NCBI RefSeq assembly: GCF_001514195.1
Contig: NZ_KQ948736.1
Span: 190,895 to 254,894, forward strand
Direction of reading: 5' to 3'
Length of the DNA stretch: 64,000 nt
Source of the DNA: Streptomyces griseorubiginosus
Lineage (GTDB): Bacteria; Actinomycetota; Actinomycetes; Streptomycetales; Streptomycetaceae
Shown: piece after piece, positions 26,034 to 34,163 of the stretch
How the letters are laid out: the number at the start of each line of letters is the position of its first letter
Numbering within the stretch: position 1 is the stretch's first letter
Position numbers and translations under genes: made by a program
Notes under the pieces: generated by a model
Seen by the model: the letters and a program-made list of their open reading frames with translations, nothing else
Told to the model about the DNA's origin: nothing
Database searches by the model: none

Positions 26034-26984
26034 TCAGCCGACTGGCGGTGTTCCGTGCGTGTGGAACGACTCGATGGTCTTCAGCCCCCAGGCCTGTCCC
26101 TTCCTCCGCTCCTCCTCGGTCCAGGTGATCAGCGGCCAGTCGGGGGCGAGGACCAGCCGGGTGAGCGGGTTGCACAGTTCGATCCGGTTGCCGCCGGGCT
26201 CGTAGACGTAGAGGAAGAACGTCTGCTGGATGGCGTGCTTGTGCGGACCCGTCTCGATGAACACCCCGGTGTCGATGGCGAGATCGGCCGCCCGCAGCAC
26301 GTCCTCACGGGTGTCGGTGGCGAAGGCGATGTGGTGCAGCCGGCCCGTGCTGCCGGTCCGGTCCTCGGTGTAGACGACGTCGTACGACTTGTCGGTGAAG
26401 GTCAGCCAACGGGCCGCGATCCGGCCGGAGTCGAGCCGGATCTGTTCGGTGGGCCGGGCTCCGAGCACCCGCTGCTGGAACTCGGCGTTGGCGAGCACGT
26501 CGGCGGCGAGGAAGTTGACGTGGTCCAACCGCCGTACACCGACCCCCCTGTTGGGCTTGGCCTGGGGCTGGTTCTTCAGGGCGGGCCGGAGGTCCTCCGG
26601 GGCCCGGTAGTGCTCGCTCTCCCAGTAGAGGGCGTGCTCGTGGCCGTCCGGGTCGGTGGTGACGTAGAGCTTGCCCAGGCCCGGTTCGTCCTCGACCCAC
26701 CGTCCGGTGCCGCCCGCCTCCTCGACCGCCCTGACCCGGCGGTGCAGTGCCTCCTCGCTGGAGGTGCGCAGGGCGAGCCGGCCGAGGCCGGGGCGGGCGC
26801 GGGCGGTGAGGACCAGGCTGTGGTGCTCGTAGTCGTCGAAGGTCCGCAGGAAGACGCTGTCGCCGTTCTGACCGCACACGGTGAGGCCGAGGAAGTCGGT
26901 GAAGAAGGCGACACCGGCGTCGAGTTCGGGGGTGAAGAGCTGGGCGTGCCCTATGTGGGCGATGTCGCCGAGCGGCGGGGTCAT
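26034..26984 (-). CDS. VOC-type (class I) extradiol ring-cleavage dioxygenase
   Basis: A 316-residue protein with two vicinal-oxygen-chelate domains, as in catechol 2,3-dioxygenases. Likely Fe(II) ligands in the second domain are H155 (LDHVNF), H217 or H218 (RLHHIAF) and E269 (GNRIELCNP). The reaction would be meta-cleavage of a dihydroxy or trihydroxy aromatic. It is the last gene of an operon whose other enzymes process 4-oxalomesaconate, the direct product of 4,5-cleavage of gallate; its start overlaps the stop of the tautomerase gene by 4 nt. Known gallate dioxygenases (GalA, DesB) are LigAB-type, so a VOC enzyme in this position is unusual. Substrate is inferred, not proven. Confidence 0.8.
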   Translation of the reverse strand: MTPPLGDIAHIGHAQLFTPELDAGVAFFTDFLGLTVCGQNGDSVFLRTFDDYEHHSLVLTARARPGLGRLALRTSSEEALHRRVRAVEEAGGTGRWVEDEPGLGKLYVTTDPDGHEHALYWESEHYRAPEDLRPALKNQPQAKPNRGVGVRRLDHVNFLAADVLANAEFQQRVLGARPTEQIRLDSGRIAARWLTFTDKSYDVVYTEDRTGSTGRLHHIAFATDTREDVLRAADLAIDTGVFIETGPHKHAIQQTFFLYVYEPGGNRIELCNPLTRLVLAPDWPLITWTEEERRKGQAWGLKTIESFHTHGTPPVG

Positions 26985-28066
26985 CGATGCCCTCCTGCGG
27001 GTCGGTCGGCGGGCCGGGGGAAGACGGTGCCGTCGAAGATCTTGCGGGCGGTGCGCACCACGGCGGTACGGCCTGCGGTGGGCAGCCCGTCGTGGCCGGT
27101 CCGCACGCTGCTCTCGATGTCCAGGAATCCGGTGGGGTGTTCGATACGGACGCGGTCGCCCCGCGGGTCGAGTACCGCGAGGTCCGCGCCCACGGCCCCC
27201 TCGATCAGCAGTCCGGCGGCGACGCTCGCCGCGCCCAGGACACCGATGGAGGTGTGGCAGCGCACGGGGATGAAGGTGCGGGTGGTGACCGCGCCCCCGG
27301 CGCGGGGCGGGGCGAGCAGCGTGACCTTCGGGACGGTGGCGCCGGACACGTCACCCAGGCCCATGAGGCGCCCGGCCCCAAGACGGACGGAGCGCAGCCG
27401 GCCGGCGAGCGCGACATCCTCCTCCAGGTCCTGTGGCCGCTCGTAGCCGGTGACCCCGAGCGAGGCGGCCGCGACGAGGACCGTCGGCATGCCGTTGTCC
27501 ACGCAGGTCACCTCGACACCGTCGACGACGTCGACCGCGCTGCCGGTGGGGAGCAGACGCCCGGCGCCCGGCGCGAACTCGATCACCACGGCCGCGGCCG
27601 TCCCCGGCACGCCCGAGATCCCTGTGTCCCCCGCGTAGTCGACACGGCCACCGGGCGTGGGGAAGGTCGCCGTTGCGTGGTCGCCGGTGTTGACCATACG
27701 GATCCGGACAGAGGTCTCCCGCTCCCCCGCGGGAACGAGTCCGCGCTCGACGGCGAACGGGCCGACACCGGCGAGGATGTTCCCGCAGTTCTGACGATCA
27801 CTCACCTCGGCCCGTCCCACGACGACTTGGAGGAACAGGTAGTCCACGTCGGCGCTCGGATCCGTGGACGCGGAGATCACGGCGACCTTGCTGGTGAGCG
27901 GGTGGGCACCGCCGAGTCCGTCGATCTGCCGCTCGTCCGGACCGCCCATGATCCGCAGCAACAGCGCGTCCCGCAGAACGGGTTCGGCAGGGAGGTCACC
28001 GGCGAGGAAGTAGGCGCCCTTGGAGGTGCCGCCCCGCATCAGCAGACAGGGCACCCCGTCGGTCAC
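26981..28066 (-). CDS. galD: 4-oxalomesaconate tautomerase (PrpF/GalD family)
   Basis: A 361-residue protein of the PrpF fold. The N-terminus has the diagnostic LLMRGGTSKGAYFLAGDLP (residues about 8-26); NCGNILAGVGPFAVERGLV follows near 97-115, and a CHTSIGVLGAASVA block appears near 273-286. GalD converts the keto and enol forms of 4-oxalomesaconate so that the hydratase can act. The GTG start at 28066 overlaps the aldolase stop by 4 nt, and the downstream dioxygenase overlaps by 4 nt. Family members also isomerise aconitate or methylaconitate; the neighbouring aldolase and hydratase favour the oxalomesaconate role. Confidence 0.75.
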   Translation of the reverse strand: MTDGVPCLLMRGGTSKGAYFLAGDLPAEPVLRDALLLRIMGGPDERQIDGLGGAHPLTSKVAVISASTDPSADVDYLFLQVVVGRAEVSDRQNCGNILAGVGPFAVERGLVPAGERETSVRIRMVNTGDHATATFPTPGGRVDYAGDTGISGVPGTAAAVVIEFAPGAGRLLPTGSAVDVVDGVEVTCVDNGMPTVLVAAASLGVTGYERPQDLEEDVALAGRLRSVRLGAGRLMGLGDVSGATVPKVTLLAPPRAGGAVTTRTFIPVRCHTSIGVLGAASVAAGLLIEGAVGADLAVLDPRGDRVRIEHPTGFLDIESSVRTGHDGLPTAGRTAVVRTARKIFDGTVFPRPADRPAGGHR

Positions 28067-28767
28067 GGCCGCTCCCCCGTGAACTCCTCGTAGGCCCGGT
28101 ACTCGACGCCGAGCTCTTTCAGCGTCTCACGCAACCCGTAACGGTCCAGGCCCAGTTGACCGTCGAGGAAGGCGGCGCGGGTGGCGGCCTCCTTGGCCTC
28201 GCGCGCCTCGGCCCGCTCGGCCGTCTCCCGGGCACGTTCGCGCGGGACGACCACGACACCGTCGTCGTCGGCGAGGATCACGTCGCCGGGGTGGATCACC
28301 TGCCCGTCGACGGCGATCGGCACGTTGACCGAGCCGCCGGTGGCCTTGACCGTGCCCTGCGCGGAGACGGCCCGGGACCAGGCGGCGAAGCCCATCTCGC
28401 GCAGTGCCTGGGTGTCACGGATGCCGGTGTTCATGACGACCCCGCGCACCCCGCGCCGCTGGAGGGCGGTGGCGAACAGCTCGCCGAACAGGCCGTCCGT
28501 GCACGGGGAGGTGGTGGTGACGACCAGGAGATCGCCCTCGCCGCACTGCTCGACGGCCGCGTGGATCATGAGGTTGTCGCCGGGCCAGCTCAGGACGGTG
28601 ACGGCGGTGCCCGCGACCCGCACGCCCTGCTGGACGGGGCGAACGAGCGGCCCCAGCAGGCCCGTTCGGCCCATGGCCTCGCTGACGGTGGCCACCCCGT
28701 ACCGCGCGAGCGCCTCGACGTCCTTCAGGTTCGCCTTCGGTGGGCCGGTGACGATCACGCCGCTCAT
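28063..28767 (-). CDS. galC: 4-carboxy-4-hydroxy-2-oxoadipate aldolase / oxaloacetate decarboxylase
   Basis: A 234-residue RraA-fold enzyme. It shows YGVATVSEAMGRTGLLGP near residues 20-37, GDNLMIHAAVEQCGEGDLLVV near 62-82, and the metal and substrate site GVVMNTGIRDTQALREMGF near 110-128, where the Arg-x-Asp pair is typical. The HMG/CHA aldolase of class II splits 4-carboxy-4-hydroxy-2-oxoadipate into pyruvate and oxaloacetate. The ATG at 28767 overlaps the hydratase stop as ATGA. The C-terminal 30 residues are longer than in plain RraA proteins, as expected for aldolases. Confidence 0.8.
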   Translation of the reverse strand: MSGVIVTGPPKANLKDVEALARYGVATVSEAMGRTGLLGPLVRPVQQGVRVAGTAVTVLSWPGDNLMIHAAVEQCGEGDLLVVTTTSPCTDGLFGELFATALQRRGVRGVVMNTGIRDTQALREMGFAAWSRAVSAQGTVKATGGSVNVPIAVDGQVIHPGDVILADDDGVVVVPRERARETAERAEAREAKEAATRAAFLDGQLGLDRYGLRETLKELGVEYRAYEEFTGERP

Positions 28768-29510
28768 GCCAGCTCCTTCGCGATCTGGGGGTAGAGGCGC
28801 ATGTACGCCTCGGCCATGGTCTTGTGGGTCAGGCCCAGGTTCGGGCCCGCGTTGCGCCTGAGCTGGACGCCCCGGCGTACGGCGAGGTCGGTGTAGTAGT
28901 CCCAGAGGTGCTGCTGGGCGCCGAGGCACTCCATGGCCTCGCGCTTGGTCTCCCAGACCTCGGTGATGTCGAGGAGGACCTCGGGCTTGAAGCCGCTCAT
29001 CTCGGGCTGGTGGGGCTCGAAGCAGAACACCGGCGGGGCGCCGATGATCTCGCCCTCGCCCGGGTAGCCGATGGCCTGGGCGAGGATCCGGGCCTCCAGG
29101 GCCATGCGGTGGGCGGCCGGATGGTCGCCGTTGTACGGGTCCTGCGCCGGGTGGGTGAGCACGACGTCGGGCTGGACGGCCCGGTAGACCTCGACGAGCC
29201 GGTCGGTCAGCTCGGCGGTGGCGACCAGCGGGTAGTCCCCGGCGTCGAAGAAGCGGATCTCCGCCCCGAGCGTGGCGGCGGCGCGCTCGGCCTCGTCGCG
29301 CCGCAGCGCCTTGATCTCCTCCAGGGTGCGGCCCTCGCGCCAGGCCTTCGCGGACTCACCGCGCTCGCCGAAGGTCAGACAGGCGAGGGTGACCTTCTCG
29401 CCCCGGGAGGCGGCCAGCGCGACGGCACCTCCGGCGCGCCACACGAAGTCCCCGGCGTGCGCGGTGATCACCAGTGTCGAACGTGGAGCGGGCGCGCCTG
29501 ACTGTGTCAT
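28764..29510 (-). CDS. galB: 4-oxalomesaconate hydratase, PIG-L family (GalB type)
   Basis: A 248-residue PIG-L/LmbE-fold protein. The zinc motif appears as TAHAGDFVWRAGG (H18 and D21) with a third ligand in the HPAQDPYNGDHPAAH region near residues 130-145. The FVWRAGG context matches GalB of pseudomonads rather than sugar deacetylases. GalB hydrates 4-oxalomesaconate to 4-carboxy-4-hydroxy-2-oxoadipate. The gene is 48 nt downstream of the GntR regulator and overlaps the aldolase start by 4 nt. A general deacetylase function is the alternative, but the operon makes it unlikely. Confidence 0.75.
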   Translation of the reverse strand: MTQSGAPAPRSTLVITAHAGDFVWRAGGAVALAASRGEKVTLACLTFGERGESAKAWREGRTLEEIKALRRDEAERAAATLGAEIRFFDAGDYPLVATAELTDRLVEVYRAVQPDVVLTHPAQDPYNGDHPAAHRMALEARILAQAIGYPGEGEIIGAPPVFCFEPHQPEMSGFKPEVLLDITEVWETKREAMECLGAQQHLWDYYTDLAVRRGVQLRRNAGPNLGLTHKTMAEAYMRLYPQIAKELA

Positions 29511-29558
29511 CGCTTGGATCTCCTTGAAATCGACAGGTGCGTGCCCGCCCCGCGCGGC

Positions 29559-30209
29559 TCAGTCGCGCAGTGCCTCGATCACGCTGGTGAGGTGGGCGCG
29601 GGTGGCCTGCTCGGCCGCCTGCGGGTCCCTGGCCCTGATCGCCTCGATCATCGCCAGATGCTCGTTCAGGGAGTGCTGGGGGCGGCCCGGCCGTAGCGCC
29701 AACTGGAAGCGGTGCCGGACCAGTTGGGCGTTCAGTCGCTCCAGCAGATCCTCGGCGGTCCGCTGTCCGGAGAACTCCCGCACCTTGGTGTGCAGTTGTC
29801 GGTTGAGCTCGGAGTAGGTCATCGGCTCGCCGTCGGCCACGGCCCTGGACATCGCCGTGCCCAGTTCGGTCAGCTCGGCGAGCTGCCCGTCAGTGGCCAG
29901 GGTCGCCGCCTTGGCCGCGCACAGCCCTTCGAGGACCATGCGGCACTCGGTGATGGCGACCGCCTCCTCCACGCTCACCACCCGCACCCGGGAACCCCGG
30001 TTGCGGATCCGCTCGACGAGGCCCTGGGCCTCCAGGTCGATGAGCGCGGCCCGGATGCTGGCCCGTGTCACCCCGAACTGCTCGGCGAGCTCGTTCTCCA
30101 CCAGCCGCTGCGCCGGCGCCATCTCGCCCCGCGCGATCGCCTGCCGAAGCTGCGCGAGCGCATACCGCTTGGCCTGCTCCCCGGTACCAGGACGGACTTC
30201 GTCAGCCAT
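29559..30209 (-). CDS. GntR family regulator (FCD type) heading the aromatic operon
   Basis: A 216-residue protein. The N-terminal winged helix spans about residues 12-75 (YALAQLRQAIARGEMAPAQ, ENELAEQFGVTRASIRAAL, LVERIRNRGSRV). The C-terminal FCD ligand domain has the usual helix set with HTKVREFSG and NEHLAMIEAI, where His residues bind a metal or carboxylate. ATG 30209 was chosen; the frame extends to 30359 but crosses the promoter. It is the first gene of the operon and probably represses itself and the four enzymes through the palindrome at 30261-30272. Confidence 0.85.
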   Translation of the reverse strand: MADEVRPGTGEQAKRYALAQLRQAIARGEMAPAQRLVENELAEQFGVTRASIRAALIDLEAQGLVERIRNRGSRVRVVSVEEAVAITECRMVLEGLCAAKAATLATDGQLAELTELGTAMSRAVADGEPMTYSELNRQLHTKVREFSGQRTAEDLLERLNAQLVRHRFQLALRPGRPQHSLNEHLAMIEAIRARDPQAAEQATRAHLTSVIEALRD

Positions 30210-30309: not shown

Positions 30310-30795
30310 TCAGCACGGCCACGGTTCGGCGAGCAGCACGACCCGGTCCGCCGTGACATCGAAGCCCAGCACCGGGTGCGCCGAATCCGACTCCGGGGCC
30401 ATCAGTACCGGCTTTCCCAACCGCCGCCCGACGGCGCGCAGCAGCCGGCAGAGCGCGTCGACGCCCGTCTGCCCCTGCAACTCCCGCAGATCCACGTCGA
30501 AGTCGATCGCCTCGACCTCGTACATCCGGAAGATCACGAGAAAGCCGGGCTCCGGCCACACCCGCAGCTCGGCACCCGTCTCGGTCCCGCGCGACGCCAG
30601 GTCCCCGGCTCGCGGCAGCCGTCCGGGGGCACCGCCCTCCGAGTACGCGTACGCCCACCCGCGCGATCGCACCAGATCGAGCACCGCCTGCCAGTCCGCC
30701 ACCGAGGTGTCCGGCACCCGCACATCCGGCAGCGCCCCCATCAGATCGGGGTCGAAGAAGTTCCTGACGTCGTCCCACAACAGGTCTGGCATCAC
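30310..30795 (-). CDS. Hypothetical protein, 161 residues
   Basis: Not recognised. It is a soluble, acidic protein. The start is GTG 30795 or ATG 30792 with only a weak upstream GGGG site. Blocks such as MPDLLWDDVRNFFDPDLMG at the N-terminus and GFLVIFRMYEVEAIDFDVDL near the middle suggest a mixed alpha/beta fold. The codon usage and length fit a real Streptomyces gene. It lies upstream of the GntR promoter on the same strand and downstream of the membrane protein gene, with 55 nt between them. Confidence 0.6.
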   Translation of the reverse strand: MMPDLLWDDVRNFFDPDLMGALPDVRVPDTSVADWQAVLDLVRSRGWAYAYSEGGAPGRLPRAGDLASRGTETGAELRVWPEPGFLVIFRMYEVEAIDFDVDLRELQGQTGVDALCRLLRAVGRRLGKPVLMAPESDSAHPVLGFDVTADRVVLLAEPWPC

Positions 30796-32875: not shown

Positions 32876-32990
32876 TGGACCGTTCCATGAGGTCTGGCGG
32901 CTTGTCAAAGGCTCGGCTGCGGGCGAGGAAGGCTTGACATGGGCAGAAGACGGCACTCAAGGTGACCTGGACACGCACTGGAACGGTCCA
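32876..32990. promoter_or_regulatory. Divergent promoter with two matching operator sites
   Basis: TGGACCGTTCCA (32876-32887) and its exact reverse complement TGGAACGGTCCA (32979-32990) lie 103 bp apart. Each is a near-perfect CG-centred palindrome of the LacI type. A TTGACA on the plus strand (32934-32939) and one on the minus strand (about 32900-32906) are candidate -35 boxes. Confidence 0.7.
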
Positions 32991-33014
32991 AAACAGGTCG
33001 CAGAGGGGTTCCCC

Positions 33015-34163
33015 ATGGTCGATACGCTCGGTGTCGCCGTCGTCGGATTCGGCTGGATGGGACGGGTGCACACCCAGGCATACGCCCGTGTGCGGCACCA
33101 CTACCCCCGGCTCCCGCTGGTCCCCGAGCTGGTGGCGGTCGCCGAGGAGGTGCCGGGGCGGGCCGAGGAGGCCGCCGCGCAGTTCGGGTTCGCCTCCGCG
33201 ACCCGGGACTGGCGGGAGGTCGCCGCGGATCCACGCGTCCAGGCGGTGAGCGTCACCGCGCCCAACTTCCTGCACCGCGAGATCGGTGTCGCGATGGCCG
33301 AGGCGGGCAAGCACCTGTGGATCGAGAAGCCGGTGGGCCTGACCGTGGAGGACGCCCGCGCGGTGGCGGACGCGGCCGCGGCGGCGGGCGTGCGCAGCGC
33401 GGTCGGCTTCAACTACCGCAACGCGCCCGCCGTGGAGGCCGCTCGCGAGCTGATCGTCGGCGGCGAGCTCGGCACGATCACCCATGTCCGCATCCGGCTG
33501 TTCAGCGACTACGCGGCCCACCCGCAGGGCGCCCTGACCTGGCGCTACGAGCGTGAGCGCGGCGGCAGCGGAGTCCTCGGCGACCTCGCCTCGCACGGCG
33601 CCGACCTGGCCCGCTTCCTGCTCGGCGACATCGCGTCCCTCACGGCCGACACCGCGGTCTTCCTCCCCGAGCGCGCCCGCCCGACCGGCGCCACCGCCGG
33701 GCACACCCTCGCCACCGGGGAACTGGGGCCGGTGGAGAACGAGGACTACGTCAACTGCCTGCTGCGCTTCGCCTCCGGCGCCCGGGGGGTCCTGGAGGCC
33801 TGCCGGGTCTCGGTCGGCGAGCAGAACAACTACGGCTTCGAGGTGCACGGCACCCGGGGCGCGCTGTTCTGGGACTTCCGCCGCATGGGCGAGCTGAGGG
33901 TCGGCCACGGCACCGGCTACCAGGACCAGGCGGTCTCCACGGTCTACGTCGGCCCGGGCGACGGCGAGTTCGGGGCCTTCCAGCCGGGCGCCGCCAACGC
34001 CATGGGCTACGACGACCTCAAGGTCGTGGAGGCGTACCGCTTCCTGCGTTCGGTCGCCGAGGGCACGCCGTACGGGGCCACGCTGACGGACGCCGTGCAC
34101 AGCGCGGCCGTACTGGACGCGATGGCGCGGTCCGCGGAGAGCGGTGCATGGGTGGAGCTGTGA
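33015..34163 (+). CDS. Gfo/Idh/MocA family oxidoreductase
   Basis: A 382-residue NAD(P)-dependent dehydrogenase. The Rossmann start reads VAVVGFGWMGRVHTQAY (residues about 7-23), and the family EKP motif appears as LWIEKPVGLTVEDA near 103-116. The C-terminal substrate domain contains SHGADLARFLLG. The enzyme probably oxidises a hydroxyl of a sugar or cyclitol. ATG 33015 is preceded by GAGGGG. It diverges from a LacI regulator that probably controls it. Substrate cannot be assigned from sequence alone. Confidence 0.85.
   Translation: MVDTLGVAVVGFGWMGRVHTQAYARVRHHYPRLPLVPELVAVAEEVPGRAEEAAAQFGFASATRDWREVAADPRVQAVSVTAPNFLHREIGVAMAEAGKHLWIEKPVGLTVEDARAVADAAAAAGVRSAVGFNYRNAPAVEAARELIVGGELGTITHVRIRLFSDYAAHPQGALTWRYERERGGSGVLGDLASHGADLARFLLGDIASLTADTAVFLPERARPTGATAGHTLATGELGPVENEDYVNCLLRFASGARGVLEACRVSVGEQNNYGFEVHGTRGALFWDFRRMGELRVGHGTGYQDQAVSTVYVGPGDGEFGAFQPGAANAMGYDDLKVVEAYRFLRSVAEGTPYGATLTDAVHSAAVLDAMARSAESGAWVEL

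Follow-up and report, generated by a model that had tools for sequence, protein, structure and literature searches.

The 64,000-nucleotide stretch of Streptomyces griseorubiginosus DNA analysed here (the window) carries, at positions 26034-30209, an operon in which genes for 4-oxalomesaconate metabolism are combined with a ring-cleaving enzyme of the VOC superfamily. We consider it very likely that this enzyme is a VOC-type gallate dioxygenase, a non-orthologous replacement of the LigAB-type enzymes GalA and DesB. On this reading the pathway itself is a known one, and its key step is carried out by an enzyme that comes from another known superfamily and has an unusual change in its active site. 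The five genes are listed below; families were assigned by Pfam and NCBIfam profile scores against curated cut-offs.

29559..30209, minus strand: GntR/FCD-family transcriptional regulator, 216 residues (Pfam FCD 92.7 bits and GntR 59.6 bits, over cut-off)
28764..29510, minus strand: GalB-like PIG-L protein, 248 residues, predicted hydratase yielding 4-carboxy-4-hydroxy-2-oxoadipate (PF02585, 89.1 bits, cut-off 28.2)
28063..28767, minus strand: GalC-like 4-carboxy-4-hydroxy-2-oxoadipate aldolase, 234 residues (NF006731, 323.6 bits, cut-off 179)
26981..28066, minus strand: GalD 4-oxalomesaconate tautomerase, PrpF-type, 361 residues, GTG start (NF033377, 483.6 bits, cut-off 440)
26034..26984, minus strand: two-domain VOC extradiol dioxygenase, 316 residues, predicted type I gallate dioxygenase (PF00903, TIGR03211 and fold)

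A preliminary description of this DNA had recognized GalB-, GalC- and GalD-like enzymes in the operon, and the sequence bears out its coordinates and gene calls. GalC and GalD both exceed curated cut-offs; against TIGR02798 (LigK/PcmE), GalC scores 286.5 bits, below the cut-off of 304.5. No GalB model was found among the NCBIfam matches, and the GalB-like assignment comes from the PIG-L family and from 57.6% identity to a Pantoea protein annotated as galB. The junctions between the enzyme genes read ATGA (28767-28764), GTGA (28066-28063) and ATGA (26984-26981), so that three 4-nt overlaps join the four genes, as had been described. A gap of 48 nt separates the GntR gene from the GalB gene. The GntR/FCD protein probably regulates the operon, judging from its family and position. 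A scan for promoters and terminators gave nothing resembling a promoter, and its single terminator-like site compares with 0.9 in shuffled sequences. The ring-cleaving gene of the operon matches only VOC-type families and contains no LigB catalytic domain. No LigC or LigI is present among the gene calls and Pfam/NCBIfam matches of the operon, which also holds no catechol meta-pathway genes and no esterase gene.

The VOC protein matches PF00903 in two stretches (73.9 bits), corresponding to two VOC domains. Its score against the catechol 2,3-dioxygenase model TIGR03211 is 315 bits, just below the cut-off of 320.2, and the equivalog threshold is not reached. An AlphaFold2 model built from a 15-row alignment (mean pLDDT 80.2, pTM 0.83) is most similar in the Protein Data Bank (PDB) to 3lm4 (Z 41.0, rmsd 2.0 over 311 residues) and to the near-identical 7q2a (Z 40.4), the alkylcatechol 2,3-dioxygenase AphC of Rhodococcus, followed by XylE (1mpy, Z 37.8) and by the homoprotocatechuate 2,3-dioxygenase HPCD of Brevibacterium fuscum (Z about 32). 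AphC and XylE have their fold in common with the VOC protein. AphC is 39-40% identical to it and differs at position 201, as described below, and in operon context. HPCD, a type I enzyme that takes a carboxylated catechol, also has a similar fold and is 28% identical. The metal triad His155, His218 and Glu269 is invariant in 100 of 100 distinct VOC proteins from Streptomyces and the actinobacterial family f8 (drawn from 119 loci), and so are the second-sphere residues Asn157, Trp193, His250 and Tyr259. The same residues, triad included, are found in 3lm4.

The second-sphere histidine of type I extradiol enzymes is absent from the VOC protein. HPCD His200, which we take to be the acid/base group, aligns with Tyr201, and this residue is a tyrosine in all 100 Streptomyces and f8 proteins. 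In 3lm4 this position is occupied by a histidine, as it is in all 16 distant homologues examined (L179-L194, the best match per genome in our sample of 396 Actinomycetota genomes at no more than 50% identity, weaker matches lying outside the set). Six proteins of about 54% identity (L173-L178) carry Tyr201. HPCD variants with Asn, Gln, Glu or Cys in place of His200 have been solved, as shown by PDB titles. The closest solved relative by sequence is PDB 9wgj (E 1e-107), which is of the Tyr type and has the KSYD motif in common with the VOC protein. It does not appear among the structural matches listed for the model. As a side observation, 9wgj is, judged by its sequence, a Tyr-type VOC extradiol enzyme, and its name 'catechol 1,2-dioxygenase' looks wrong. 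The six L173-L178 proteins, from family f18, have GalB/GalC-like neighbours (42-46% identity) and no strong GalD, and could belong to a sister pathway.

In 3-substituted catechols, the bond cut by catechol 2,3-dioxygenases is the one between C2, which bears a hydroxyl, and C3, which bears the substituent. In the mechanism we propose, the VOC protein would bind gallate to an Fe(II) (or Mn(II)) ion held by His155, His218 and Glu269. Two adjacent hydroxyls of gallate would coordinate the iron and the third would occupy the site of an alkylcatechol's 3-alkyl group. Proximal (2,3-type) extradiol cleavage would then take place next to the carbon bearing the third hydroxyl. That carbon would become a carboxylate and not an aldehyde, and the product would be 4-oxalomesaconate directly, in its enol form. 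GalD would tautomerise it, GalB would hydrate the tautomer and GalC would split the adduct into pyruvate and oxaloacetate, with the GntR protein controlling the set; neither LigC nor LigI would be required. Since gallate would be cleaved proximally just as a 3-alkylcatechol is, no new chemistry is called for; the enzyme would only have to tolerate the ring carboxylate and the pyrogallol pattern. Tyr201 may contribute to this tolerance.

The predicted reaction and the GalD, GalB and GalC steps are alike in the GalA/DesB pathway of Pseudomonas putida KT2440 and Sphingobium SYK-6 (PMC12314914; this and the other papers are cited here for what their available excerpts state). GalA is of the LigB/LigA type (PMC12314914, PMC4250580), whereas the ring-cleaving gene of the window operon is of the VOC type. 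The excerpt of the 2025 paper names DesB and GalA as dioxygenases of gallic acid (PMC12314914), and that of the 2014 AromaDeg paper places gallate dioxygenases in the LigB superfamily (PMC4250580). Both agree with the preliminary statement that known gallate dioxygenases are LigAB-type. In the excerpts of two further reports, Aspergillus niger still grew on gallate after deletion of all 17 ring-cleavage candidates, suggesting another route (PMC10512348), and the bacterial catechol 2,3-dioxygenase BLC23O had no activity on pyrogallol or protocatechuate (PMC8671467). PraA of Paenibacillus is a protocatechuate 2,3-dioxygenase (PMC7814577). Our literature search found no VOC gallate dioxygenase among the matches listed, and a prior description elsewhere is possible.

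The gene set is conserved around the close relatives of the VOC protein. In the best 80 of 570 VOC loci, nearly all from Streptomyces by title and one from an 'Actinobacteria bacterium', the VOC gene is accompanied by GalD in 79, GntR in 79, GalC in 78 and GalB in 76; one locus that ends at a contig edge (L031) was scored as a miss for every gene. As each gene is kept in 76-79 of the 80 loci, the grouping is not due to chance. When the 396 Actinomycetota genomes were screened for the VOC protein and the 4-oxalomesaconate tautomerase, a VOC protein of at least 57% identity was found in 8, all of them among the 9 genomes with an over-cut-off tautomerase (Fisher p 6e-16, with the 57% line set after the results were seen and the test uncorrected for phylogeny). 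The VOC and tautomerase genes lie side by side in 8 of these 9, seven of the window's genus (its own genome included) and G316 of family f8. The one remaining genome, G349, carries a complete protocatechuate 4,5-cleavage set instead. Six further genomes of the sample have a VOC protein of about 54% identity and no strong tautomerase. An MFS gene directly follows the VOC gene in at least 63 of the 80 loci (a lower bound; the rough gene finder recovered the VOC gene itself in 71 loci). The one MFS gene scored is nearest to aromatic acid/H+ symporters (TIGR00895, 293.7 bits, under the cut-off of 418.55).

A few Streptomyces loci have lost parts of the set. GalB alone is missing in L067 and L070, which retain VOC, GalC and GalD. 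Their genomes (G690 and G691; L070 and G246 were taken as one genome and counted once) carry LigJ adjoining a LigI-like gene, named by eye, elsewhere. A substitution of LigJ for the lost GalB was considered and not upheld: two out of two is not significant (p 0.14), because LigJ is also found in 14 of 40 genomes that have the operon GalB (40 of L001-L079). In L076 (genome G692), a deletion fuses a 39-residue GalB start to a GalD missing its first 50 residues and GalC is gone; LigJ was searched for in this genome and not found.

The protocatechuate 4,5-cleavage pathway (LigAB, C, I, J, U, K) also reaches 4-oxalomesaconate, with the tautomerase and the aldolase in common, and family f8 contains both arrangements. 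Among its 299 genomes, 36 have a strong tautomerase match, 32 of them over cut-off. Sorting of all 36 tautomerase loci, with LigJ/LigI loci viewed in 4 kb and VOC loci in 18-20 kb, gave 16 with LigJ and LigI and without VOC, 15 with VOC, and 5 with neither. LigA, LigB, LigC, LigI and LigJ were all matched in the positive controls L101 and L165, the latter being the one LigJ/LigI locus that was examined for LigA, LigB and LigC and proved to contain them. None of the five was found in any of the 15 VOC loci. Having neither LigC nor LigI, these loci are consistent with a substrate that is cleaved directly to 4-oxalomesaconate, namely gallate. GalB is present in 14 of the 15 VOC loci, L160 being the one without it, and L164 holds GalB, GalC and GalD alone. 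Another four loci (L146, L148, L149 and L151) have GalD, a GalB-like gene and ABC transporters, with a GalC-like gene in L146 and L149, and no VOC or Lig ring-cleavage genes; their products possibly import and metabolise a tricarboxylate akin to 4-oxalomesaconate.

The neighbours in f8 point in the same direction. LigM-like tetrahydrofolate-dependent O-demethylases (vanillate/3-O-methylgallate) lie beside 9 of the 15 VOC loci, in 14 copies (L102, L147, L150, L155, L156, L158, L160, L162 and L163). Two of the four copies scored exceed the LigM cut-off (897 and 882 versus 580 bits), and the other two match LigM and DesA below both cut-offs. The best PDB match of one copy is LigM itself (E 3e-217). 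L147 additionally contains FolD, PobA and PcaH, such that protocatechuate can go to PcaHG and the VOC operon would take gallate derived from syringate.

Homologues were also fetched from a plasmid collection, in which 82 records matched and 23 loci were picked for diversity (L195-L217). Of the 23, 19 have a tyrosine at position 201 within a K-[STG]-Y-D motif, and 12 of these 19 hold GalB, GalC and GalD within 7 kb. Four Tyr-type loci (L197, L201, L207 and L215) have a partial gene set. The remaining four of the 23, from Embleya, Thermus thermophilus HB8, Rhodococcus PD04 and Deinococcus, have His at 201 and no GalB, GalC or GalD nearby; those of T. thermophilus HB8 and Rhodococcus PD04 adjoin dmpG-type meta-pathway genes. 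On an Agrobacterium plasmid (L199), the gene order is GalB, VOC, LigK and tautomerase, followed by a tannase (PF07519, 438 bits). PF07519 also covers feruloyl esterases, and the tannase is therefore supportive and not proof. A Pantoea plasmid (L198) has GalBCD, a LysR gene and VOC, with a gene annotated as an aromatic acid/H+ symporter beside VOC. L207 and L201 have a LigJ relative close to VOC, and neither GalB nor LigI was found in their 15-kb stretches; the hydratase may have been exchanged while VOC stayed. The Thermus oshimai plasmid pTHEOS01 (L197) combines a Tyr-type VOC with GntR, PIG-L, LigK, PobA and aldehyde dehydrogenase genes and may represent a version of the module for protocatechuate. 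The VOC-GalBCD module thus recurs in Actinomycetota, Alpha- and Gammaproteobacteria and is not a single odd operon.

These data raise the wider possibility of a separate, widespread family of VOC-fold gallate dioxygenases in the three groups, which would have arisen from catechol 2,3-dioxygenases and be marked by a second-sphere His-to-Tyr swap that enables cleavage of a pyrogallol-type ring to a carboxylate. We put this forward tentatively, with slightly less than even confidence. In a tree of 34 rows, rooted for drawing only, the 13-row set that holds the window protein (Streptomyces, Nonomuraea and f8) is supported at 99/97. The Tyr proteins do not form one clade and need three changes, so that the tree does not establish that Tyr201 arose only once. 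Database labels of the VOC relatives read either catechol 2,3-dioxygenase or VOC family protein.

Outside the operon, the window genome (G000, 9.87 Mb) has other ring-cleavage genes. Protocatechuate 3,4-dioxygenase beta (PcaH) scores 349.7 bits, over cut-off, and a weaker match just downstream is plausibly PcaG, so that protocatechuate has a route of its own. There are two LigB-family proteins, L144 (263 residues) and L145 (311 residues). We take L144 to resemble 4,5-DOPA dioxygenase (DODA-like). By eye, L145 has aldehyde-dehydrogenase-like and fumarylacetoacetate-hydrolase-like neighbours, as in homoprotocatechuate clusters. The LigB-family matches of the genome include no GalA-like protein. 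There is no LigA match either, a result that is weak alone, as the control loci gave none. The preliminary claim that the VOC protein is the only ring-cleaving enzyme is hence true of the operon and not of the genome. As to a source of gallate, VanAB of Streptomyces NL15-2K converts syringate to 3-O-methylgallate and gallate, according to the excerpt of PMC9867520. A VanAB-like enzyme could supply gallate in the window strain. The suggestion that a gallate dioxygenase had come from an unrelated fold is supported, at the level of sequence, by the LigM-like neighbours, the Agrobacterium tannase, PcaH in L147 and in the window genome, and the alternative LigJ/LigI module in other f8 genomes.

Several observations weigh against a VOC gallate dioxygenase. 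To our knowledge, no activity has been measured for any member of this VOC family. HPCD Arg243 and Arg293, which presumably hold the carboxylate, align with Thr245 and Gly296; they are not conserved and no replacement is proven. The closest solved relative, 9wgj, bears the name 'catechol 1,2-dioxygenase', and our literature search found no paper for it. The association of Tyr201 with the pathway genes is imperfect: L180 has His at this position and GalB/GalC-like neighbours, the Tyr-type protein of Roseomonas (L196) sits with LigB and LigI, Tyr-type loci of Pantoea (L202) and Chimaeribacter (L203) have no pathway genes within 7 kb, and L197 has no tautomerase in 15 kb. In f8, 5 of the 36 tautomerase loci have neither VOC nor LigJ/LigI, and 6 of the 15 VOC loci are without a LigM-like gene. 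The window lacks the MFS gene that follows VOC in other loci, and a search of the window genome gave no match to it; nor does this genome have a LigM/DesA match beyond 30%.

It is quite unlikely that the VOC protein cleaves protocatechuate (4,5) and that a dehydrogenase encoded elsewhere, or a partner gene of the DUF1932, aldehyde dehydrogenase or Gfo/Idh/MocA type, oxidises the semialdehyde to 4-oxalomesaconate in a second step. This explanation could draw on T. oshimai L197, where VOC is accompanied by GalB, GalC, PobA and aldehyde dehydrogenase genes but not by GalD, on an aldehyde dehydrogenase in Roseibium L200, and on the DUF1932 genes that recur near the operons. Moreover, a Gfo/Idh/MocA gene akin to the one at 32934-34160 of the window is found near, and outside, the operon in 37 of 81 loci, and LigC belongs to the same broad family. 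However, the window gene is in a separate group on the strand opposite to the operon, and as a candidate LigC it was rejected: among the NCBIfam models it scores highest with levoglucosan dehydrogenase (298 bits, under the cut-off of 650), and it lacks PF19858, the domain present in LigC of control L101. The preliminary remark that no dehydrogenase for the protocatechuate branch is present holds for the operon. In addition, PcaH of the window genome and of L147 already serves protocatechuate, and LigC and LigI are absent from all 15 f8 VOC loci.

Only marginally less likely still, the VOC protein could cleave 3-O-methylgallate to a methyl ester, from which an esterase would release 4-oxalomesaconate, as with MgaAB/MgaC in Pseudomonas sp. 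NGC7, where the GalBCD steps come after ring cleavage of 3-O-methylgallate (excerpt of PMC12314914). The LigM-like demethylases in f8 could be read in this way, and an alpha/beta-hydrolase-like gene, named by eye, is found on the other strand near, and outside, the operon in 16 of 80 loci. LigM, going by its family name, makes gallate from 3-O-methylgallate, however, which renders a 3-O-methylgallate dioxygenase unnecessary. No esterase gene lies within the operon, most of the 80 neighbourhoods have none either, and the tannase neighbour would give gallate and not its methyl ether. Least likely of all is an ordinary catechol or alkylcatechol 2,3-dioxygenase co-transcribed with the oxalomesaconate genes by happenstance, as its near-cut-off TIGR03211 score, nearest folds (AphC and XylE) and database label 'catechol 2,3-dioxygenase' might suggest, given that the operon has no catechol meta-pathway genes, that the GalBCD linkage is kept in Actinomycetota, Alpha- and Gammaproteobacteria, and that it is the His-type homologues of T. 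thermophilus HB8 and Rhodococcus PD04 that adjoin such genes instead.

Gallate is a building block of tannins and lignin. If the VOC protein is a gallate dioxygenase, the missing ring-opening step would be filled for bacteria that have galBCD and lack galA, two unrelated folds would have been recruited for one reaction, and extradiol dioxygenases would offer a natural variant at a second-sphere residue that has been studied intensively. Because of their database labels, catechol 2,3-dioxygenase and VOC family protein, the breakdown of gallate and syringate may go unnoticed in soil and plant bacteria, possibly including Streptomyces, Nonomuraea, Agrobacterium, Rhizobium and Pantoea among others. 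The enzyme could also provide an alternative to GalA for lignin and tannin engineering.

A few minor observations concern the surroundings of these operons. On the minus strand at 30310-30795, upstream of the GntR gene, the window has a 161-residue open reading frame with no Pfam/NCBIfam match. A DUF1932/6-phosphogluconate-dehydrogenase-like gene, not seen in the window operon, recurs at L152:8575-9372, L160:6357-7124, L163:14115-14894 and L198:549-1424. In L152 it lies between GalC and GalD, and a gap of similar size is found in five other f8 loci. Elsewhere in the window genome, a second, distant PrpF/tautomerase-like gene (L100) is located at G000:C4:934639-935706 and scores 242.9 bits, under the cut-off of 440.

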